Positions 3,781 to 54,565 of a stretch of DNA of 64,000 nt are shown here, piece by piece. The DNA is from Rhodothermus marinus. Lineage in GTDB: Bacteria > Bacteroidota > Rhodothermia > Rhodothermales > Rhodothermaceae. Location of the stretch: assembly GCF_009936275.1 (NCBI RefSeq), contig NZ_AP019797.1, forward strand, positions 2,897,890 to 2,961,889, given 5' to 3'. The notes under the pieces were generated by a model. It saw only the letters and a list, made by a program, of their open reading frames with translations. It searched no databases and was not told where the DNA came from. How positions within the stretch are numbered: the first letter of the stretch is position 1; every line of letters begins with the position of its first letter. Made by a program: the position numbers and the translations under genes.

Positions 3781-4227
3781 GTCCTGGTGAGCGAAGGGTA
3801 GGAGGACGCCGGAAGACGCTCGGCCACGCTACAGACGCGTCCTCTTTAGCTTACGAACTCACCAGCCGCTAGCGCATCACGAGCGCATCCCGCTGCTGCA
3901 GGACGCCTCGTGAAAAAACGCATTCAAAGAACGCGGGCGTTGCGGTTCAGGATCGCACCTGGTGGCAGCAGGCCCTTTCCTGAAGGAGGAACAACAAAAA
4001 TTACGCAGCAGAACGATCTTTGTAAAACCCGGTTTTCCCCGACCTTATTTTTTCACAAACCGCCCCTCGCACCGGGGGGCTGATGAACGAGTCCACTCCA
4101 CCGGGGTTCCATTACCGGCCGTGCAGGCGTTTGCCCAGCCCCCCATTTAACATTTTTTAACACACCATCCCGAGCCGGCCCGTGGAACCCGTCTGGATAC
4201 CGGGCGTTGGCCGTTTCAAACTGAACA
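3781..4227. other. Non-coding stretch with no recognised gene
   Basis: This interval lies between the speH leader and the promoter-like element at 4228. The short open frames here lack a convincing start context or conserved motifs. I see no tRNA, transposon end or named riboswitch. It probably contains the speH promoter on the minus strand, but no element stands out. Confidence 0.5.
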
Positions 4228-4258
4228 TTGACGAGCCGACGTTCGGTTCTTATCTTTA
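4228..4258 (+). promoter_or_regulatory. Bacteroidota-type sigma-A promoter candidate
   Basis: TTG at 4228-4230 is followed 20 bases later by TATCTTTA (4251-4258). This resembles the Bacteroidota -33 TTG / -7 TAnnTTTG consensus. Transcription would start near 4265, just before the hairpin-rich element and about 345 bases before the sulfite reductase start codon. Confidence 0.4.
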
Positions 4259-4264
4259 GCGCGT

Positions 4265-4435
4265 TCGGTTCAAACGAGCACTTGCCATGACGCATCGGCC
4301 AACCACACGGCACCAGGCATTGCGGCGCTGCTGGCCTTTCCGGACCGCAGCCATGCTGCAGGTGGCTGGTCGATGTTGCTGTATGGGCTGATCGCCTCTC
4401 GCTCTGCCCCGGTCTGAAGGCTTCTTCCCCCTTTT
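4265..4435 (+). ncRNA. Candidate structured RNA or leader of the sulfur operon
   Basis: The segment folds by eye into a long rod. CATCGGCCA (4293-4301) pairs with TGGTCGATG (4367-4375) through one G-U pair. Inside it CACC (4311-4314) pairs with GGTG (4361-4364), GCAT (4317-4320) with ATGC (4353-4356), and TGCGG (4321-4325) with CCGCA (4345-4349). Weaker outer pairs are GAGC/GCTC (4276-4279, 4401-4404). A pyrimidine-rich tract ending in five T residues occurs at 4424-4435. The promoter-like element at 4228-4258 is correctly placed. Size and rod shape recall 6S RNA, but I cannot assign a family. It may equally be a cis-acting leader for the sulfite reductase gene. Confidence 0.35.
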
Positions 4436-7850: not shown

Positions 7851-8891
7851 ATGCAGGCCTTCATCCCCTACGTGCAGGCCGTCGGGCGCGGCGAAAAACT
7901 CAAGCGCGACCTGACCCGCGAGGAAGCCCGCGAGGCCATGCGCCTGATGCTCGACGGCACGGCCACCCCTGCCCAGATCGGCGCCTTTCTGATTACGCAG
8001 CGCGTCAAGGGCGAGACGGCCGACGAGATCGAAGGCTTCGTCGAGGCGGCCCGGACCTTCTGCCAGCAGATTCGTCCCCGTGTTCCGAATCTGCTGGATC
8101 TGGGCGTGCCCTACGACGGCAAGGCACGCACGCCCCAGCTCGCCCCGGCCATCGCATTGATCGTGGCGGCGGCCGGACAGCCCGTCGTGCTTCATGGCGC
8201 GCCCGGTGTGCCCACCAAGCAGGGCGTTACGCCGGCCCACGTACTCGAGGCGCTGGGCATTCCGGCCGAGCAGGCCCCCGAGGCCGTTGCCCACCAGCTC
8301 GAAACGCTGGGCATCGGTTACCTGCACGCGCCCCGCTTCGCGCCGGCCTGGCACGCGCTGACGCCCATCCGCCAGCAGTTCGGCCTCCGCACCGCACTCA
8401 ACACGGTGGAAAAGCTCCTCAATCCGGCCGGCGCTTCCCGCTGCGTGGCCGGTTTTTTCCATCGCAACTACCTGCTCCGGATGCGCGCGGCCGTCCATCG
8501 GCTCTTTCCCGGAAGCTGGCTCGTGCAGGGCATCGAGGGATCCATCGAATGCCGGGCGGGTCGCACCACGCACCTGTATCCGGTCGATGAAGCGGCCGAG
8601 CCGCTTGTGGTCGAAGCACCGAGGCTGGGCTTTGCCACGTCGGACGATACCGAAGTGCCCGCCGATCCCGCCGTCCATGCTGAGATTACCCGGAGCATTC
8701 TGACCGATCGGCCGAGTCCCAGTCGGGATACCGCCCTGCTGACGGCCGGCGTCCTGCTTTACGTGAGCGGCCGGGCCGACCGGCTGGCCGACGGGATCGA
8801 ACAGGCCCGGGCCACGCTCGCCGACGGAAAAGCCTTCCGTCTGCTACAGCAGTGGATGGAGACGGTGCGCACCTCGGTCCCGAGTTCTTGA
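7851..8891 (+). CDS. TrpD2/YbiB-like anthranilate phosphoribosyltransferase homologue
   Basis: The 346-residue product has the helical N-terminal domain and alpha/beta domain of the anthranilate phosphoribosyltransferase/thymidine phosphorylase fold (LTREEAREAMRLMLDGTATPAQIGAFLI near residues 20-50). The glycine-rich phosphate loop of true TrpD is replaced by LDLGVPYDGKARTPQL, as in the YbiB/TrpD2 subgroup, members of which bind nucleic acid rather than make tryptophan precursors. No other trp gene is nearby. It is the last gene of the apparent sulfur operon. A 176-bp dispersed repeat lies directly downstream. Confidence 0.8.
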   Translation: MQAFIPYVQAVGRGEKLKRDLTREEAREAMRLMLDGTATPAQIGAFLITQRVKGETADEIEGFVEAARTFCQQIRPRVPNLLDLGVPYDGKARTPQLAPAIALIVAAAGQPVVLHGAPGVPTKQGVTPAHVLEALGIPAEQAPEAVAHQLETLGIGYLHAPRFAPAWHALTPIRQQFGLRTALNTVEKLLNPAGASRCVAGFFHRNYLLRMRAAVHRLFPGSWLVQGIEGSIECRAGRTTHLYPVDEAAEPLVVEAPRLGFATSDDTEVPADPAVHAEITRSILTDRPSPSRDTALLTAGVLLYVSGRADRLADGIEQARATLADGKAFRLLQQWMETVRTSVPSS

Positions 8892-8899
8892 ACGGACGT

Positions 8900-9075
8900 T
8901 ATACGATTTCCAGAAAATCCATGTGAGAAAGCACGGGCGCACACGGCAATGCGCCCCTACAGATCCTTGACGTTTTCCCTATCCCGTAGGGGCGGACCCC
9001 TGTGTCCGCCCGATCATACCCGCCGGACCACGTCCGCCACACGGGGTGTGGCACTCTCTCATGCACCGGTAAATC
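8900..9075 (+). repeat. Dispersed 176-bp structured repeat, copy A
   Basis: This copy and the one at 42459-42637 share most of their sequence in the same orientation, from TATACGATTTCCAGAAAATC to CGGTAAATC. Inside are three nested or adjacent inverted repeats: GGGCGCA/TGCGCCC, GCCCCTAC/GTAGGGGC and GGGCGGA/TCCGCCC. It lies between convergent genes and directly follows the TrpD2-like stop codon, so it may act as a terminator or RNA-stability element. No coding potential is evident. Confidence 0.85.
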
Positions 9076-9639
9076 TTACCCTTCCTGCAGCGCGGCCACC
9101 GCCTGGCGACAGAAGGAGAGCACCAGCCGAAGATGCGTGTGGAGCACCGGCACCAGCGCCAGCCGCTCCATGCGCTCCTGCGGGAGTTCCGGAAGGCCCG
9201 GTGGACTGATCCGTCCCATCCAGAGCGCCATCTTTTCCCTAAGCAGCCGCTCGCCAGGGAACTGTCCGGCCGGAAGATGCGCCTCGTAGAAGGCCTGCTT
9301 GCGCTGCAATCGGCCATACACCTCCTGCCCGGTCGCTTCCAGTAGGGTCCGGTCTTCCGCGCTGAGCAGCATACCGCCCAGCAGGTAGTCGCGATAGGTG
9401 AACGGAAGGGCCTGCAGGGCAGGGACGACCGCCTGCGTCAGTTCGGCCTGCTCCCGGAGCCCCACCTCGGCCGCCCGAGCCGTCGCCGTGGCCACCAGAC
9501 AGAGCGTCTCTTCGGCCACCAGCTCGGGATCGGCCATGTCGATGGATTCGAGCACGCGGCCGATCAGGTCCTGCGTCGTGCTCAGCGCTCCCGTCGTCGC
9601 AAACGTCGCAATCCGGGCCGCCTGGGTAATCAAACGCAT
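9076..9639 (-). CDS. Hypothetical helical protein
   Basis: The 187-residue protein starts at the ATG giving MRLITQAARIATFATTG. Upstream in-frame codons have low-complexity coding and overlap the divergent regulator gene, so the longer reading is unlikely. The sequence is predicted mostly helical, with many Leu, Ala and Glu residues and no transmembrane segment, cysteine motif or nucleotide-binding site. I do not recognise it. It is divergently arranged with the REC-GGDEF-REC gene, and only 73 bp separate the two starts. Confidence 0.65.
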   Translation of the reverse strand: MRLITQAARIATFATTGALSTTQDLIGRVLESIDMADPELVAEETLCLVATATARAAEVGLREQAELTQAVVPALQALPFTYRDYLLGGMLLSAEDRTLLEATGQEVYGRLQRKQAFYEAHLPAGQFPGERLLREKMALWMGRISPPGLPELPQERMERLALVPVLHTHLRLVLSFCRQAVAALQEG

Positions 9640-9712
9640 TGAATCGACGGTATAACCTTTGCTGTACGGTTGTTGTCCTACCGGAATGCCCAGGCATTGT
9701 GTTCCGCAAAAG

Positions 9713-11281
9713 ATGCCCTCACTGCCCCCCGCTACCCAGGAAGGAATTGTTGCCCTCCTTGACAGCCTGGAAGTAACCCTGTTGAATCTGGAAAATGGTT
9801 CACCGCAGGCGGTGATTACCGGGCTGCGTCTGCTGGTGCGCACTGCCCAGCTACTGGCTCCCTTTGCCAATCAACCCGAAGTTGCTGCGTTGCAACGGGA
9901 AATTCAGCAAATTCTTGCTTACTCAGAGTTCTCGCAGACCCAGCCGGTCCGAGAAATTCTTGTCGAAACCAAAAAGGTTCTGGAGCAACTCGCTGCCCGC
10001 ATGACCGGTGTTCAGGTACGCCTCCTGCTCGTAGAACCGGATGACGGGCTGGCGGATCTTTTAACCACCATGCTACAGACCCCGTATCGTCAGATCCATC
10101 GCGTTGCCACTGCTACGGAAGCCCAGCAGTGGTTGCAACAGCAGTCGGCCCACCTGATCATCACCGAGCTTTTTCTGCCGGATCTGGACGGACGCTCGCT
10201 GATCCTGTGGATTCGCCAACAGCCGCAAACGCAACAGACACCCATTCTGGTGCTTTCGGCGCATCTTTCGTCGGCCGTCAAAGCAGAATGCTATGCACTG
10301 GGCGCCGACGACGTACTGGAAAAGCCCTTTGATCCTGCCGAATTGTCGCTCATCGTCGCCTCGCTACTGCAGCGCATGATTCTACAGCAGGGGAGCGATC
10401 CCTTAACCGGATTACCGGGCCGGGCATTGCTGGAAGAAACGTTCGGGCGGCTGCAACAGCTGCATCGCCAGACCGGAGCCCCCTTCTGCGTCGCATTTGT
10501 CGATCTGGATCGCTTTGCCGAAATCAACAAACGCTACGGTACGGCCATTGCCGATGCCATCCTGCGTCAGGTTGCCTGGCATTTCGGGCGGCTGTTACGA
10601 CCTGGAGATGTGGTGGGCCGCTGGGAGGCCGACACATTCTGTCTTTTGCTGCCGGATACGTCCGAAACCCAGGCCCGTCTGCTGCTGGAACGTATCCTGG
10701 AAGCCCTGCAGACGGAGCCGATCAAACTGGCGGAGACGCCACCCCTCACGCTTTCGTTTTCAGCCTGCATCTTTCCACTTTCCGGAAACAAGCCGGTACG
10801 TCTGATGGATCTGCATCAACAGAGCCAGCAGTGCCTGCAGCGACGGCGTGCGGATGCGCCTGTTCGGTCAATTCAGGAACATGTCACACACAAACCCCGC
10901 ATTCTGTTGGTCGAAGATGACCCCGACATTGCCAGCCTCATCCAGATACGACTGCAGCGCGATGGGTACGAAGTCGTGCACCTGGCTAACGGCCGCGAAG
11001 CTGCCGAATGGGCCCGACAGCACACGGCCGATCTGGTCATTCTCGATGTCAAACTACCCGGAATGGACGGCTTTGAGCTGCTCGCTTTTCTGCGAGCGCA
11101 GCCCGCTTTTGCCGAAGTGCCCATTGTGATGCTGACCAGCCTGAGCCAGGAACAGCATGTCGTTCGGGGTTTTGAGCTGGGTGCCGACGATTACGTGGTG
11201 AAGCCCTTCTCGCCGGTTGAATTGAGTGCCCGGGTGCGCCGGCTGCTGCATCGACAGACGCCGCAACTGGTTACGCTCTGA
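9713..11281 (+). CDS. REC-GGDEF-REC response regulator with degenerate active sites
   Basis: This 522-residue cytoplasmic signalling protein has a helical N-terminal region (1-100), a receiver domain (about 100-220), a GGDEF domain (about 225-385) and a second receiver (about 395-520). In the first receiver the phosphoacceptor Asp is Glu (LIITELFLPDLDG). In the GGDEF domain the signature is EADTF, so cyclase activity is unlikely, yet the RxxD product-binding I-site remains just upstream (RPGDVVGRWEADTF). The C-terminal receiver looks intact (LVEDDPD, LVILDVKLPGMDGFE, conserved Lys in VVKPF). ATG at 9713 gives MPSLPPATQEG; an in-frame ATG at 9659 is possible. The HEAT gene starts 7 bp downstream, so the pair is likely an operon. 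Confidence 0.85.
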   Translation: MPSLPPATQEGIVALLDSLEVTLLNLENGSPQAVITGLRLLVRTAQLLAPFANQPEVAALQREIQQILAYSEFSQTQPVREILVETKKVLEQLAARMTGVQVRLLLVEPDDGLADLLTTMLQTPYRQIHRVATATEAQQWLQQQSAHLIITELFLPDLDGRSLILWIRQQPQTQQTPILVLSAHLSSAVKAECYALGADDVLEKPFDPAELSLIVASLLQRMILQQGSDPLTGLPGRALLEETFGRLQQLHRQTGAPFCVAFVDLDRFAEINKRYGTAIADAILRQVAWHFGRLLRPGDVVGRWEADTFCLLLPDTSETQARLLLERILEALQTEPIKLAETPPLTLSFSACIFPLSGNKPVRLMDLHQQSQQCLQRRRADAPVRSIQEHVTHKPRILLVEDDPDIASLIQIRLQRDGYEVVHLANGREAAEWARQHTADLVILDVKLPGMDGFELLAFLRAQPAFAEVPIVMLTSLSQEQHVVRGFELGADDYVVKPFSPVELSARVRRLLHRQTPQLVTL

Positions 11282-12410: not shown

Positions 12411-13523
12411 AGGGTTGTCACTCTATGCAGTAGTGATTATAATTAGGGGCAGGAGGTGAACCATGGCTCGAAAAGCATCACCGGACAACCCACCCTGTCC
12501 CCGTTGTGGCGACAAGCACACGGTCCGCAACGGGCATAAAGATGGCCGCCCGCGCTGGGTCTGTCGCGGCTGCGGCCGTTCCTTCGGTCTCACCCTGGGC
12601 ACCCCGATGTATCGCCTGCGCACCCCACCGGCCGAAGTGGCCCGTGCCCTGCTCCTCGTCATGCGGCGGGGGAGTTTGAGCGCCGCCGAGGAGATCACGG
12701 GCCACAAGTATGAGACGATCGGCCGTTGGCTGCGTCGGGCGGCCGACCATGCGGAGGCCATTACCCGGGCGTTGGTCCAGGAGCTCCAGCTGAGCCAGCT
12801 GGAGGTGGACGCCTTTTGGTCCTTTGTCAAAAAAAGTGTGCGGATGCTGGAGCAGGGTCGGGCCAGACAGGCGAAGTGGGCCCTCGTTGGGGATGTTTGA
12901 GCCAGGACCGGGCCAGTCGCTTTGTGGTGGCCTGGGCCTTTGGAGCGACGGAGGACGAGCTGGCCCCTGAGGTGGTGCGCCTGACGCGCCAACGCACCCG
13001 TGCGCAGGCCGGTGTGCCCTGGGTCAGTGATGGCCGGAAGGTCTACCGCAGGGTCATTTGCCAGGTGTATCGCGCCCCCAACCGACCGGCAAACGGGGGC
13101 GTCCACCGCTGGTGCTGCGGGAGGATGTGCGTCTTACGCAGGCCGTCAAGCGACGCGTGGGCGGGCGGGTCGTCGGTGTTGCGGTGCGCCCGGTCGTGGG
13201 GGAGCCGGTCGCCTGTCCCTACTGTGTGCACGCGGAACGCCTCAACGGGGTGTTGCGAGATCGGCTCAACGCCTTGACGCGCAAAACCCATGCTTTTGCG
13301 AAGAAGCCGACGAGCTGGGAGGCGCTGGTGCGGCTTTGTTTGTTCGAGCACAACTGGATGCGTCCGCATCGGGCGTTGCGAGAGCGCGTTGGAGGCTTGC
13401 CGGGCGGGCGGCGCTATCGGCCCCGCACGCCAGCTATGGCGATTGGCCTGGCTGAGCATGTCTGGAGTTGGGAAGAATTCCTGAGTTTCAGACATTATCA
13501 ATACAAGAGGGAGTGACAACCCT
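12411..13523 (+). mobile_element. IS1-like insertion sequence with 13-bp terminal inverted repeats
   Basis: The element is bounded by perfect inverted repeats: AGGGTTGTCACTC at 12411-12423 and GAGTGACAACCCT at 13511-13523, for a total of 1113 bp. It carries one transposase reading frame broken twice (see separate entry), whose stop codon overlaps the right repeat. I see no clear target-site duplication in the flanks (CACC on the left, CGATC on the right), which suggests an old insertion or later rearrangement. Confidence 0.85.
12463..13516 (+). pseudogene. IS1-family transposase, interrupted by two frameshifts
   Basis: The N-terminus is a zinc ribbon (CPRCG then CRGCGRSFG) followed by a helix-turn-helix region, as in IS1-type transposases. 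Three acidic catalytic candidates are spread over three reading frames: Asp in LEVDAFWSFVKK (frame 1), Asp in VPWVSDGRKVYRR (frame 3) and Glu in HAERLNGVLRDRL (frame 2). The first shift falls near 12890-12900, where frame 1 stops at a TGA. The second falls at or near the C5 run at 13075-13079. IS1 elements use one programmed -1 shift, so the first could be functional; the second is most simply a mutation. The reading frame starts after a good GGAGG site. Confidence 0.85.
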
Positions 13524-34976: not shown

Positions 34977-36021
34977 GCAGCCCGGCCGCGTCCAGCAGGA
35001 AGACCTCGACGCGATTGTGCGAGGCGTTATAGCCGGTACCGGCCAGGTAGCGGCCGTTGTACGAGACCACGGGAGCTCCCCAGAACGTGGAGCCGCGCGA
35101 GAGCAGGCCGTCGTAAACTTTCTTCAGCCGACGCATCTTGCCTTCCTGCCAGTGGAAGGTATGCCAGACGCCTTCTTTGTCCTGAGCGACGCCGACAATA
35201 ACCGTCCCGTCCTCGGAGACCCAGACGGCCTTGCTGTCCCAGCCGCCCAGTGTGCCCAGGTCCTCCATGCCGGTTTCGGCCGTCCAGCGGAAGGCCCGGC
35301 GACGGCCCCGGGCATCTTCGGCCATGCCTACCACGACGCGTCCATCGGCCGAGACGGCCAGCGCCTGGCTCCAGTTGCCGCCCAGCGTCCCCAGGTCCTC
35401 CATGCCGCCTTCCGGCGTCCAGCGAAACGCCCGACGCTGTCCGCGTTCGTCTTCGGCCATGCCCACCACGACGCGCCCGTCGGCCGAGACAGCCAGCGCC
35501 TCGCTTTCCGAGCCGCCCAGCGTCCCCAGATCCGCCATGCCACCTTCCGGCGTCCATCGGAAGGCCCGGAAGCGTCCGTAGCCATCTTCTGCCGTGCCCA
35601 CGACCACCTGACCGCTGGCCGAGACGGCCATGGCTTCGCTTTCCGAGCCGCCCAGCGTGCCCAGATCCGCCATGCCGGCCTCGACCGTCCACCGAAACGC
35701 CCGCGTATGGCCATGGCCGTTTTCGGCCATGCCCACCACGACGCGTCCGTCACCCGACACGGCCAGCGCCTGGCTCCGCACGCCGCCCAGCGTACCCAGA
35801 TCCTGACGTCCTTCCCACACCGACCACCGGAACGCCCGGCTGCGCCCCTGCTCGTCACGGGCAACGCCCACGACCACCGCCCCGTTGGCCGAGACGCCCG
35901 TCAGCCGGTGCACTTCGGTTTCCTTCAGATCTACCCAGGTAAAGGACTGCGCATATGCCGCACTCCCGATCCACCAGGCAAAGCCCAGAAAAGCCAGCCA
36001 GAGCCACGTCAGACGTTTCAT
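34960..36021 (-). CDS. Exported HAF-repeat protein
   Basis: The 353-residue product has a signal peptide ([19 protein letters not shown], then SAAYAQ) and five tandem copies of a 45-residue HAF-type repeat (DLGTLGG ... [24 protein letters not shown]), visible as a 135-bp period in the DNA between about 35250 and 35800. HAF repeats form beta-propeller-like extracellular structures of unknown function. No T9SS sorting tail is seen. It overlaps the convergent LLM gene at its 3' end by 17 bp. Confidence 0.85.
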
Positions 36022-42354: not shown

Positions 42355-42458
42355 ACGGATCGATCCGGTTGGCATTGCGCACAGAGCGGCCGCATGTTAC
42401 ATAATCAAAACGTAATCTTTTGTTAACTTCGACCAAATTCTGCGCTCCGGCATCATGG

Positions 42459-42637
42459 TATACGATTTCCAGAAAATCATAGTGCACGTGAGAAAGCACG
42501 GGCGCACACGGCGGTGCGCCCCTACCAATCCTTGATGTTTCCCCTATCCCGTAGGGGCGGACCACTGTGCCCGCCCTATCATGCCCGCCAGATCACATCC
42601 GCTACACGGGAGGTGGATCCTCATGCATCGGTAAATC
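42459..42637 (+). repeat. Dispersed structured repeat, copy B
   Basis: Second copy of the repeat at 8900-9075, same orientation, about 179 bp, with small insertions. The three stems are conserved, including GGGCGCA/TGCGCCC and GCCCCTAC/GTAGGGGC. The third stem, GGGCGG with CCGCCC, tolerates base changes between copies. It sits in a 393-bp spacer between the porin gene and the SSS symporter. The rest of the spacer (42638-42747) shows nothing recognisable. Confidence 0.85.
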
Positions 42638-42747
42638 AGCGTTCCTATAGTACATGCGCGCGAAATTCTATGCCCTGTTTTCTTCCCCGAGCTGCAAGCT
42701 GCGTCCGCCCTGCCGCAGCCGCCGGATCACGCCCCGGGTAAGTCCCC

Positions 42748-50431: not shown

Positions 50432-52987
50432 TTACTTCATCAGCACCAGCGTACGCACGGCCTGGAACGCCCCGGCGTCGATCCGGCAATAGTAGAGGCC
50501 GCTGGCCAGACCCCGCGGACGCCACTGCACGGTGTACGTGCCGGGCTGGTGATCCCGGTTGACCAGTTCGGCCACCTCCCGGCCCATCAGGTCGTACACC
50601 TTGATCACCACGCGACGCGGTGCAGCCACATCGTAGCGGATGGTGGTCACCTGCCTGAACGGATTCGGGTAGCCATCATACAGGGCAAATCGCGTGGGCA
50701 CGTCCGGAGACGGTTCGTTGGCCACCGGGTGCAGCAGGCTACCTCCCTCGTAGGAAATCGAGCCGTTCGGACCCAGCGTGAACGGAATCGTGTTGTCGAA
50801 CACCCCCGCCTTCAACCGAAGCACCCCGTCAATCCGGGTCGGCTGTGAAAGCCTGACGCCCGCCTCGTTGTCGATCACCAGATCGTTGACCACCGTGGGC
50901 ATCAACGTGCTGGTCTCCTGCGGCTCGCTGCCGTTGAAAACAAAGTTGGCGGTGGTGTCCAGTGCCACCGTCCCCAGCGTCTGGATGGAGCCGGCAACGC
51001 CACCGGGATGGGCCGTGGCCAGCGTCGCGCCGCCGTTGAGAATGAAGATCCCTTCGCCGCCCAGTTCGCTGGTGCCCATGTCCAGCGTCGTACCCTCGGC
51101 CACCTCGATCGGCAACGCCCGAATGTCGTTGCCCTCGCCCAGCACCAGACGCTGCACCCCCGCCTTCGCAAACACAAACTTCGCATTGCCAGGCGTCGGG
51201 TTCGAATTCTGCGTCGTCGCATTCGACATCTCAAAATCCCCCTCATGCAAAATCCACGTCGTCGTGCCTGTACCACTACCCTGCGAACCCCGCGAAATCG
51301 AAAAATTCCCTCCCGTCACCCGAACACTCCCGTAATGGTGCACCACAAACGTCGTGTAGGCATTGCCCGTCCCGTGCGTGGCAAACTGCCCATCCTCCAC
51401 AATCACATCCCCCATAATGGTCACCACCGACGTGTCCTGCGCCGAGGCCGACGTCAGATACCACCGCGCCGACCCCGTGCTGACCACCCGAATGTCCCCG
51501 CCAATCGTCACCCCGTCAAAACTCATGTGCAGGTTTTTCGTCTGATTCGGCGTGTTGAACACCACATGGTAATAGCTCTGATTTCGGTTGGCCGGCGCCT
51601 CGTCCACAATCCCCGTCAACAGCACCGTCGAACCCTCCTCCCAGTTGCCCGTCGGAATCGACCCACCGTTGCGCGCATGCTCGTAAACGGCACCGTTCCC
51701 GAACGTCAGCGCCGTGTCAGCCTCCAGCTCGCCCCGGTTCACCACTGTTCCCAGCACCTGTCCGCCGGCCACGTGCAGCACGCCCGTGGTGTCGACCACC
51801 AGCACCGCGGCCGCCTCCACCTCCAGCATCGACACCCGATGCGTGTCGGCCACCGCCACCCCCTCGGCGTTCGCAATCCCCAGCGTCGCCAGCGTGTCCG
51901 GCAACAGGCTGCCTACCACCTGCGCTGCCGCTCCGTTGAACACGTAGCTCGCCTGCTTGCTCAGACGCACCTCCCCGGTCGTCTGCAGATTGCCGTCCAG
52001 ACCGTCCGGGTGCCCGCTCACCAGCGTCGCCCCGTCGTTCAGGTAGAAGATGTCGTCGCCGCCCAGTTCGCTGGTGCCCATGTCCAGCGTCGTACCCTCG
52101 GCCACCTCGATCGGCAACGCCCGAATGTCGTTACCCTCGCCGAGTGTCAACCGCTGCGTACCCTGTTTGGCAAACACGAACTTCGCATTGCCAGGCGTCG
52201 GGTTCGAATTCTGCGTCGTCGCATTCGACATCTCAAAATCCCCCTCATATAGAATCCACGTCGTCGTGCCCGTACCACCGCCCTGCGAACCCCGGGAGAT
52301 CGAGAAGTTGCCCCCCGTCACCCGGACGTTGCCGTAATGCTCCACGACCACGTTGGTCGCGCTGCCCGTCCCCTGCGTCGCAAATTGCCCATCTTCTACG
52401 ATCACATCCCCCATGATCCGCACCGTATCGGACACGCCGCCCACCAGCTGCCAGCGGGCACTTCCCGTATTGATGACGCGAATGTCGCCGCGAACCGTCC
52501 GTCCATGCAGCCCGAGGTCCCGGTTGGACGACAGGTTGGGCGTGTTGAGCACGATGTGATAGTAGTCCTGTCCGCGATTGCTCGGAGCATTGCTCACGAT
52601 GCCGGTGAACATCACGGTCGAGCCGTCTTCCCAGGTAGCCTGCGGGACGCTGCCCCCATCTCGCGCATGCTCGTAAACACCCCCATCGGCGAAAGTCAGT
52701 GAGCCGTCGCCGATGGTCACTTCGCCGTCTCCTTCCACTTTAAGGTATCCTGAGATCGTTACCGGCACGTCGACCGTGACGGTATGCGTCACCGTGATAT
52801 GCTCGGTGCCCGTCGGTGCGCCGGTGGCCGCTCCCCAGGTGTTTCCGTCGAACACCTCCCAGGTAGCCGCTGCGCTCCAGTTGCCGTCTGCGGCCGAGCG
52901 ATAGTCGCCGGCCTGCTGCGCAAGAGCCAGGATCGGCCAGCAGAGGCCCAGCAGGACGGCGCCGATCTTTATGGTCATCGCTTTCAT
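50432..52987 (-). CDS. Large T9SS-exported repeat protein A
   Basis: The 851-residue product has a signal peptide (MKAMTIKIGAVLLGLCWPIL, then ALAQQAGDYR), two homologous beta-rich modules of about 330 residues each and a C-terminal type A sorting domain (YDGYPNPFRQVTTIRYDVAA, then ASGLYYCRIDAGAFQAVRTL). Each module contains TGGNFSISRGSQ, FEMSNATTQNSNPTPGNAKF and LGEGNDIRALPIEVAEGTTL. The start is set by a GGAGGAC site 5 bases before ATG at 52987. It is likely a surface adhesin or polysaccharide-binding protein; the family is not recognised. It lies 15 bp after the related gene at 53003 and ends at a strong terminator. Confidence 0.85.
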   Translation of the reverse strand: MKAMTIKIGAVLLGLCWPILALAQQAGDYRSAADGNWSAAATWEVFDGNTWGAATGAPTGTEHITVTHTVTVDVPVTISGYLKVEGDGEVTIGDGSLTFADGGVYEHARDGGSVPQATWEDGSTVMFTGIVSNAPSNRGQDYYHIVLNTPNLSSNRDLGLHGRTVRGDIRVINTGSARWQLVGGVSDTVRIMGDVIVEDGQFATQGTGSATNVVVEHYGNVRVTGGNFSISRGSQGGGTGTTTWILYEGDFEMSNATTQNSNPTPGNAKFVFAKQGTQRLTLGEGNDIRALPIEVAEGTTLDMGTSELGGDDIFYLNDGATLVSGHPDGLDGNLQTTGEVRLSKQASYVFNGAAAQVVGSLLPDTLATLGIANAEGVAVADTHRVSMLEVEAAAVLVVDTTGVLHVAGGQVLGTVVNRGELEADTALTFGNGAVYEHARNGGSIPTGNWEEGSTVLLTGIVDEAPANRNQSYYHVVFNTPNQTKNLHMSFDGVTIGGDIRVVSTGSARWYLTSASAQDTSVVTIMGDVIVEDGQFATHGTGNAYTTFVVHHYGSVRVTGGNFSISRGSQGSGTGTTTWILHEGDFEMSNATTQNSNPTPGNAKFVFAKAGVQRLVLGEGNDIRALPIEVAEGTTLDMGTSELGGEGIFILNGGATLATAHPGGVAGSIQTLGTVALDTTANFVFNGSEPQETSTLMPTVVNDLVIDNEAGVRLSQPTRIDGVLRLKAGVFDNTIPFTLGPNGSISYEGGSLLHPVANEPSPDVPTRFALYDGYPNPFRQVTTIRYDVAAPRRVVIKVYDLMGREVAELVNRDHQPGTYTVQWRPRGLASGLYYCRIDAGAFQAVRTLVLMK

Positions 52988-53002
52988 GGCGTCCTCCATG
53001 GT

Positions 53003-54565
53003 TTATTTGATCAGCATCAGCTGCCGGGTGATCACGTGCTCGGCGGACTGCAGCCGGTACCAGTAGAGGCCCGGACTCAATCGGCCGGCATCGAGCGTCA
53101 CCTCGTGGAAGCCCGCCGCCTGATGCCCTTCCAACACGGTCATGACCTCCCGGCCCAGTAGATCGTAGAGCTTGATCGAAACGTAGCCACTGGAGGGGAG
53201 GCCGAACCGAATCGTGGTGGTTCGATGGAACGGATTCGGATAGTTCTGCTCGAGCACGAACCGCTGCGGCACGTCATCGATCGGCTCGTTGGCCACCGGC
53301 TGCAGCAGGCTACCTCCCTCGTAGGAAATCGACCCGTTGGGACCCAGCGTGAACGGAATCGTGTTGTCGAACACCCCCGCCTTCAACCGGAGCACGCCGT
53401 TGATCGTGGTCTCCTGCGAGAGTGTCACGCCGGCCGGGTTGTCGATGATCAGGTCGCGCACGACGGTCGGCATGCGGGTGCTGGTCTCCTGGTGCTCCGT
53501 GCCGTTGAAGGCATAGCTGGACTCGTCTTCAAGCGTTACTTGACCGGTCACGTTTTCAAAAATAGCCGCCACGCCACCGGGAAGCGCCGTACCCAGCGTG
53601 GCGCCGGCATGCAGGTAGAAAATTCCCTCGCCGGCCAGTCGGCTCTGGCCCATTTCCAGGGTGGTACCCTCGGCCACCTCGATCGGCAACGCCCGAATGT
53701 CGTTACCCTCGCCGAGCGTCAATCGCTGCGTGCCCTGCCTGGCAAAGACGAACTTCGCGCCGCCGGGCGTGGCCGTGGAACTCTGCGTGGTGGCGTTCTC
53801 CATCGAAAAGTCCCCTTCGTAGAGGTACCAGGTGGTCGTACCGCCCGGCTGCGAACCACGGCTGATGGAGAAGTTGCCGCCCGTTACGACGATGTTGCCG
53901 TAATGGTGCACGATGAAGGTCGTATAGGCGTTGCTGGTGCCATGGACGGCGAAATTGCCTTTTTCTACGTAGACATCCCCCATGATGGTGATCTCCGAGG
54001 TGTCGTTGACGGCGGCCGTGGTCAGATACCAGCGGGCCGAGCCGGTGTCGAGCACCCGGATATCTCCGCCGATCGTCACCTCGTCGAGGTTCATGTTGAG
54101 ATTCGACAGCAGATTGGGCGTTTCGAAAATGATGTTGTAATAGGACTGGTTGCGGTCGGCCGGGGCCTGTGCTTCCACGCCGGTCAGATGCAGCGTGGAC
54201 CCTTCGGCCCAGGTGGCCAGCGGGATTTTGCCGGCGTCGCGGTCATGCTGATAGACGCCGCCGTCGCCGATGGTCAGCATGCCTTCTTCGGCATGGACCA
54301 CGCCCTGGTTGATCAGGCGCCCGGTGATCGTGACGGCCACGTCCACGTACACCGAGTCGGTACTCTGCACCGTGATCGTCTCAGCTCCGGTCGGGGCACT
54401 GGTTGCCGGCGCCCAGGTGGCCCCGGTGTATCGTTCCCAGACGGAAGCCTGGCTCCAGTTTCCACTGGCGCGCGTCCGGTAGTCTCCGGCCGACTGCGCC
54501 TTCAGCGGCAGCGCCGGCAGGAGCCCCATGCCCAGCATCAACAGCGTTGTAACAAGGCGTCGCAT
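53003..54565 (-). CDS. T9SS-exported repeat protein B, paralogue of A
   Basis: The 520-residue product has a signal peptide (MRRLVTTLLMLGMGLLPALP, then LKAQSAGDYR), one copy of the beta-rich module found twice in the adjacent protein A (TGGNFSISRGSQPGG, FSMENATTQSSTATPGG, LTLGEGNDIRALPIEVAEGT) and a C-terminal type A sorting domain (LEQNYPNPFHRTTTIRFGLP, SPGLYWYRLQSAEHVITRQL). A very strong Shine-Dalgarno sequence (GGGGAGGAGGTG) precedes the ATG. It lies 21 bp after the beta-barrel gene. Function is unknown; cell-surface binding of pectin is possible. Confidence 0.85.
   Translation of the reverse strand: MRRLVTTLLMLGMGLLPALPLKAQSAGDYRTRASGNWSQASVWERYTGATWAPATSAPTGAETITVQSTDSVYVDVAVTITGRLINQGVVHAEEGMLTIGDGGVYQHDRDAGKIPLATWAEGSTLHLTGVEAQAPADRNQSYYNIIFETPNLLSNLNMNLDEVTIGGDIRVLDTGSARWYLTTAAVNDTSEITIMGDVYVEKGNFAVHGTSNAYTTFIVHHYGNIVVTGGNFSISRGSQPGGTTTWYLYEGDFSMENATTQSSTATPGGAKFVFARQGTQRLTLGEGNDIRALPIEVAEGTTLEMGQSRLAGEGIFYLHAGATLGTALPGGVAAIFENVTGQVTLEDESSYAFNGTEHQETSTRMPTVVRDLIIDNPAGVTLSQETTINGVLRLKAGVFDNTIPFTLGPNGSISYEGGSLLQPVANEPIDDVPQRFVLEQNYPNPFHRTTTIRFGLPSSGYVSIKLYDLLGREVMTVLEGHQAAGFHEVTLDAGRLSPGLYWYRLQSAEHVITRQLMLIK

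Follow-up and report, generated by a model that had tools for sequence, protein, structure and literature searches.

A probable small non-autonomous transposon of Rhodothermus marinus carrying a nested pair of GTAG REP hairpins

GTAG REPs have been sorted into 24 families (Di Nocera et al. 2013, PMC3733652), and the GTAG tag matters for cleavage by TnpA-REP, according to the text of PMC8266576. The nearest precedent we found for a REP pair nested inside a larger repeat, going by the main text of PMC3733652, is that of the GTAG-15 dimers of Anabaena variabilis, which lie inside long palindromes of the form TATAGGA...TCCTATA. Like these dimers, the repeat described here is a GTAG REP pair set in a larger repeat, and its two unlike REPs have their tags on the inner side, which makes it a heterodimer of the TT type of that paper; unlike them, whose palindrome was not found without REPs, it occurs in a REP-free form (the B form below) and has a demonstrated 3-bp target-site duplication (TSD). 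The same paper describes REPs inside genes, and the passages of it considered here do not name RAYT genes among them. Bacterial MITEs such as Chunjie, Nezha, NEMIS, RUP and ERIC, named in PMC3733652 and PMC10969869, offer a second comparison: as portrayed in the relevant passages of these sources, they resemble our element in being short, non-coding and self-folding, with many copies, fixed ends, a TSD and internal-deletion variants, the differences being that our element has no long and clear terminal inverted repeat and that no parent IS was found for it in its genome. A third comparison is with REPtrons and their RAYT genes (TnpA-REP, NCBIfam NF047646); the genome studied here encodes RAYT relatives whose loci carry GTAG hairpins, but in two of the three the hairpin lies in frame inside the coding sequence, and the REPs of the element have other stems.

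The window, i.e. the whole stretch of DNA that was analysed, comprises 64,000 nucleotides of the single-contig R. marinus genome G000 (3,430,829 bp; G000:C1:2897890-2961889). An earlier note on the window had reported two similar dispersed copies of a repeat, and these are indeed present, being 87% identical over the central 132 nt without gaps and 84% over the whole match. The repeat at 8900-9075 and 42459-42637 is thus real, but its ends had been placed slightly off, and are corrected to 8902-9075 and 42461-42649 from the 3-bp duplications and the empty site of copy 2. The description of it as MITE-like or REP-like is borne out on both counts, one nested in the other, with an outer shell flanked by a 3-bp TSD and an inner GTAG REP pair. 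The parts of the two copies are as follows.

8899..8901, plus strand: TSD TTA, left of copy 1 (sequence; TNA rule from other copies)
8902..9075, plus strand: copy 1, A form, 174 bp (family alignment)
8902..8919, plus strand: left end of copy 1, TACGATTTCCAGAAAATC (alignment, pattern search)
8935..8960, minus strand: REP 1 of copy 1, GTAG-tagged hairpin GTAG-GGGCGCAT..GTGCGCCC (tag-hairpin pattern)
8986..9011, plus strand: REP 2 of copy 1, GTAG-tagged hairpin GTAG-GGGCGGACCCCTGTGTCCGCCC (tag-hairpin pattern)
9036..9052, plus strand: third small hairpin of copy 1, GCCACAC-GGG-GTGTGGC, in its right part (sequence, alignment)
9076..9078, plus strand: TSD TTA, right of copy 1 (sequence)
42458..42460, plus strand: TSD GTA, left of copy 2 (single GTA in the empty site of the sister genome G004)
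42461..42649, plus strand: copy 2, A form, both ends present, 189 bp (TSD, empty site)
42500..42525, minus strand: REP 1 of copy 2, GTAGGGGCGCACCGCCGTGTGCGCCC (tag-hairpin pattern)
42551..42576, plus strand: REP 2 of copy 2, GTAGGGGCGGACCACTGTGCCCGCCC, one A-C mismatch in the stem (tag-hairpin pattern)
42622..42649, plus strand: right end of copy 2, CATGCATCGGTAAATCAGCGTTCCTATA (sequence, alignment)
42650..42652, plus strand: TSD GTA, right of copy 2 (sequence, empty site)

Both window copies are of what we term the A form, with two GTAG hairpins whose tags face inward (in copy 1, REP 1 and REP 2 form a pair with the tags inside) followed by a small third hairpin. In the A form REP 1 has the stem GGGCGCAC/GTGCGCCC and REP 2 the stem GGGCGGAC/GTCCGCCC; the stems are 8 bp long and lie beside the tag, within the 6-13 bp range that characterizes GTAG REPs. 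The element boundary lies 33 bp (copy 1) and 39 bp (copy 2) to the left of REP 1, and 64 bp (copy 1) and 73 bp (copy 2) to the right of REP 2. Copy 1 lacks the last 12 bases, AGCGATCCCATA, as does its orthologue in G004 (L041/L182), and its end was set by the family alignment together with the TTA/TTA flanks. It fills the gap between the convergent ORFs 7851-8891 (plus strand) and 9076-9870 (minus strand), and its right TTA (9076..9078) is also the stop codon of the latter (TAA on the minus strand).

Genome-wide the count comes to about 50 copies, so that the family is not one of only two members whose stems are conserved nowhere else, the outcome that the earlier note had taken as fatal to its proposal. 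Whole-genome BLAST gave 43 matches at 40 places, with three secondary matches pooled with their neighbours, and pattern searches together with the reading of neighbouring sequence added about ten diverged or variant copies; these searches recovered the diverged A copies L117, L118, L119, L398 and L399 and B copies at 1030.4, 1032.3, 1367.5, 1434.3 and 2731.9 kb, and reversed-pattern control searches of the same genome gave no matches. As in MITEs, these are short, non-coding, dispersed copies with fixed ends. The right-end pattern occurs at 35 places in G000, at 28 in the sister genome G004 (two contigs, the larger of 3,261,604 bp) and at 18 in G005, and is found nowhere in G001, G002, G003 and G006; among 114 genomes of the order it is confined to G000, G004 and G005, being absent from 111. 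Comparison of 47 G000 loci with G004 showed 18 to be shared by both flanks, including window copy 1, whose G004 flanks are 92.5% identical on both sides.

Several arrangements around individual copies were noted in passing. At L016 (G000 642851) an older copy seems to have received a younger one in its right end, the younger being flanked by TCA to left and right; this would be a nested insertion whose target is known. L113 contains three copies of a gene for a coiled-coil protein of about 190 aa within 5 kb (286-864, 2155-2733 and 3804-4403; weak CCDC90-like match, below cut-off), each with the right end of an element copy about 20-35 bp downstream. Another dispersed repeat (GTAGTCCGGCACGGAGCGCAGCGGCGTGCCG...) is present at many places in G000, G004 and G005 and adjoins several element copies (joined-flank query 2213-2300; L113 near 190-260 and 2060-2130).

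The inside of the element is a mosaic of hairpin modules which vary between copies. Most copies in G005 are of a long form, which measures 395-558 bp in the seven copies whose two ends were located and in which further hairpin modules (CAGTCGCTTCGCGACAGCTCCCCC..., CTCCCTGCCAGGGAGGGGG) lie to the left of the REP pair, and the B form of G000 has the CAGTCGCTTCGCGACAGCTCCCCC/CTCCCTGCCAGGGAGGGGG hairpin modules without the REPs. The A and B forms would be internal-deletion derivatives of the long form. As a separate observation, a Tn5-like IS (Tnp_DNA_bind, Dimer_Tnp_Tn5) is present at L390, L391 and L392 (G000 near 2730.9, 1056.4 and 1058.9 kb), at all three places inside or adjoining CTCCCTGCC / CAGCTCCCCC hairpin modules, a placement that suggests hairpin targeting by this IS.

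Most copies have a fixed left end, TAYGATTTCCGGGAAATCAT..., and a fixed right end, ...GCACCGGTAAATCAGCGATCCCATA. The aligned copies, most of which have unrelated flanks, start with TAYGATTTCC and end with GATCCCATA, and their flanks are mostly T-N-A. To be counted a copy had to match both ends (at most 4 mismatches on the left and 5 on the right), which 57 of 96 rows from 92 loci did; the tandem twin of L113 was counted once, and the count over G000, G004 and G005 omits any copy orthologous to a G000 copy that had passed. Identical flanking 3-mers were found in 15 of 25 G000 copies against 4.1 expected (0 of 20000 shuffles), and unlike ones in the other 10; where T-N-A stands on both sides (n=16), N agrees in 13 against 5.35 expected (0 of 20000 shuffles). 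Over the three genomes the 3-mers are identical in 24 of 48 copies (7.2 expected), and N agrees in 21 of 29 TNA pairs (8.0 expected), with no shuffle among 20000 reaching either value. Leaving out L113, L177, L198 and L204 gives 14 of 24 for G000 and 23 of 44 for the three genomes. The TSD that the earlier note proposed to look for is therefore present: the element inserts at a 3-bp target, mostly T-N-A, which is duplicated.

Consistent with this, the sister genome preserves sites without the element. When 13 G000 insertions were queried as joined flanks, an empty G004 site aligned across the junction for nine; at seven of these the 3-mer is present a single time (GTA at window copy 2; TGA at L005 and L004; TTA at L028 and L008; TCA at L114 and L007), and two are one base off (L003, TCG; L017, CTA). 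The flanks of L040 lie apart in G004, where the site looks occupied, and the joined flanks of L027, L030 and L002 gave no match across the junction in G004. L114 is a B-form copy without REPs; along the 200 bases that were queried, its empty site in G004 shows no difference and has a single TCA. Since a copy without REPs entered its site with a TSD of this kind, transposition does not require the REP pair, and it is therefore the ends that drive mobility, with the hairpins as passengers.

Inverted repeats at the termini are weak. They consist of TAYG/TATG and of a block, GATTT-CCG-TGCATG, that is interrupted, and in local alignment of the two ends 133 of 2000 shuffles score as high. The search for terminal repeats thus gave fixed ends with weak inverted repeats, and for this reason we do not claim full MITE membership and use the word for the mode of action. 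A partner transposase, another of the checks suggested at the outset, was not found in G000, nor was an autonomous transposon sharing the element ends seen there. The left-end pattern matches this genome 36 times and the right-end pattern 35 times, and as far as read these matches lie in or beside element copies. DDE_Tnp_1 occurs at 15 places in G000 (six of an IS427-like IS, five of a 337-aa IS, three of the Tn5-like IS and the fragment L389), and at none of the 14 whose ends were read do these equal the element ends. The IS427-like IS, with ends GAAGYCATCC / GAACTTATCC, the 337-aa IS, with ends TAGGAGTTACGCAG, and the Tn5-like IS, again with other ends, were accordingly rejected as partners. 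Transposons of the IS5/IS1031 and PIF/Harbinger types use a 3-bp target, TNA. For PIF/Harbinger a length of 3 bp is given in PMC2213677. The element resembles both groups in its 3-bp duplication and in having T and A at the ends of this in most copies, and departs from them in that no transposase with matching ends was found and that it begins with TAYG.

Turning to the inner hairpins, a tag-hairpin pattern matched G000 87 times, as against 14 times for the control. Of these matches 66 lie in 42 listed element copies. The 21 outside include two in further copies (L398, L399), one next to a copy (655050), two solo REPs that lack a shell (L400, L401), seven at three RAYT loci and nine which do not look like tagged hairpins. 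The solo REPs mean that REPs may also move alone. The exact pattern GTAGGGGCGGACCNNTGTGTCCGCCC was found in at least 120 stretches of GTDB genomes from many phyla; among the 80 matches listed are records named Geobacter, Nodosilinea, Oligosphaera, Nitrospinota, Planctomycetota, Oscillospiraceae and Bacteroidales. By tblastn a RAYT is present at 3 of these 80 loci (L286, L299 and, 5.3 kb away, L320), so most of the listed REPs are not beside a RAYT visible to this search.

G000 itself encodes three RAYT relatives, which were recovered with a Nitrospinota RAYT as query. A search with PF01797 (Pfam Y1_Tnp) gave no matches in G000 and missed all three; the absence of RAYTs which it implied was a false negative. 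Y1_Tnp loci tried as seeds were without the searched motif. In two of the three genes (L393, L394) MPNHIH/MPNHVH is soon followed by a perfect GTAG...CTAC hairpin that is in frame, and in the third (L395) a hairpin lies about 80 bp upstream of the gene; in G004 both RAYTs have the in-frame hairpin. The RAYT genes with an in-frame GTAG hairpin shortly after the HUH motif are listed here by locus.

L393, 617-1201, in G000
L394, about 568-1230, in G000
L396, 605-1219, in G004
L397, 621-1292, in G004
L286, 2466-3095, minus strand, in Nitrospinota

In L394 no ATG precedes the conserved start, and the gene, going by its sequence, may begin with GTG. The orthologues L393 and L396 differ in having two versus three GTAGGGG tags spaced by 21 bp. 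The stems at the G000 RAYT loci, GGGCACGGC and GGGCGACGC, differ from those of the element and, among the tag-hairpin matches of this genome, occur only at the RAYT loci. Beyond G000 and G004, L286 is an open RAYT gene (NF047646 at 4.5e-18, below the 80-bit cut-off; PF01797 at 4.8e-6, over the cut-off) with two GTAGGGGCGGACCNNTGTGTCCGCCC-type hairpins in frame; at L299 (Campylobacterota) the RAYT match has a REP 227 bp away, besides a related hairpin in frame within the gene itself; and G001 has a RAYT gene that is interrupted where it meets a REP array. Hence in G001, L286 and L299 the same or similar hairpins occur in or beside RAYT genes, the association expected of GTAG REPs. RAYT searches of plasmids and phages gave 4 and 1 records, respectively, all below 60% identity. 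Among the papers listed on RAYT, REP and coding sequence and on nested MITE/REP arrangements, no title or abstract opening speaks of a RAYT gene with a REP in frame within it, and Rhodothermus gave no match in the main text of PMC3733652, PMC12306157, PMC6006769 and PMC2817692.

Taken together these observations make it highly probable that the element is a small non-autonomous DNA transposon (MITE-like), with the REP pair as passenger. A cut-and-paste DDE transposase would recognise the ends in trans and move the shell, and the REP pair would have entered the ancestor by single-strand REP/RAYT insertion and been carried along since. The same inner pair, two GTAG-tagged hairpins in opposite orientation, and the RAYT relatives of G000 along with the hairpins in or beside the RAYT genes of G001, L286 and L299 could also be read as a REP/BIME (REPIN-like) unit, moved as a whole by RAYT (TnpA-REP) cutting single-stranded DNA beside the hairpins, with the outer parts copied along. 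We regard this as very unlikely, given boundaries with a 3-bp duplication that stand well clear of the REPs (33-39 bp on the left, 64-73 bp on the right), RAYT-locus stems in G000 that are unlike those of the element, and a REP-free B-form copy (L114) that moved likewise, REPs not being needed for mobility. Segmental duplication of the neighbouring DNA, or its homologous recombination, as the sole means of spread would account for some copies with common flanks within one genome, such as the tandem duplication at L113, yet most aligned copies have unrelated flanks, and as nine copies stand at sites empty in G004 this reading is refuted for those nine; as a general account its probability is close to nil.

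The earlier note had further seen in the stems a selected RNA or DNA structure, and the element might by now be a transcribed structured RNA, acting as a bidirectional terminator or a stabiliser of mRNA 3' ends, with its stems kept by selection. Copy 1 folds better as RNA than its shuffles (z-score -3.6), copy 2 has a z-score of -2.0 as DNA (5 of 200 shuffles as good), copy 1 lies between two convergent ORFs, and none of 45 copies falls inside a called ORF, although the caller was crude and missed ORF 9076-9870; an intergenic placing is equally expected from selection against damage to genes. Against this reading stands the lack of covariation. In all 72 distinct REP-pair sequences of G000, G004 and G005, in which 95.1% of the cells pair, two-sided changes occur in 1 pair against 0.8 expected when the hairpins are treated separately (280 of 500 shuffles as high) and in 4 pairs against 2.7 expected for a joint hairpin (97 of 500 shuffles as high); a set of 67 sequences, without the gapped or most diverged L151, L025, L032, L040 and L039, likewise gave no covariation above shuffles. 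The compensatory changes that mark a structured RNA were thus not seen, and a selected structure is not upheld. REP 1 and REP 2 differ by a C-G versus a G-C pair, but this sets one hairpin apart from the other and may predate the element. The comparison of third stems between the copies is correct as far as it was given, but the change in copy 2 (GGGCGGA / CCCGCCC) makes an A-C mismatch of an A-T pair and does not compensate. An Rfam scan of the window also gave no family at gathering score. We therefore consider a present role as structured RNA quite unlikely, and retain the non-autonomous transposon with its passenger REPs as the preferred reading.

The element is a clear case of REP hairpins spread as passengers of another transposon, and it cautions against taking each dispersed REP pair for a sign of RAYT activity. 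RAYT genes with an in-frame tag-hairpin span at least two phyla, probably three, and were missed by Pfam Y1_Tnp in G000. More speculatively, and on balance we think it unlikely, there might be a two-layer mobile system, in which a double-strand transposon shell carries RAYT substrates, so that one piece of DNA could be spread by either of two unrelated machines. Across phyla, the transposase gene of this RAYT clade would encode its own tag-hairpin, in frame and directly following the catalytic HUH motif, and the encoded enzyme could then bind the gene, the mRNA or the DNA strand of the gene, as self-recognition or autoregulation. Both the passenger REPs and the in-frame hairpins are directly testable in a cultured thermophile genus.

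The window contains other repeats besides the two copies. At 12411-13523 inverted repeats AGGGTTGTCACTC...GAGTGACAACCCT, about 1.05 kb apart, surround a possible broken transposase, a unit that looks IS1-like. Tandem repeats of 135 bp occupy 35176-35850, and 50657-53993 contains a set of repeats with 62-79% similarity at a spacing of about 1.0-2.6 kb.
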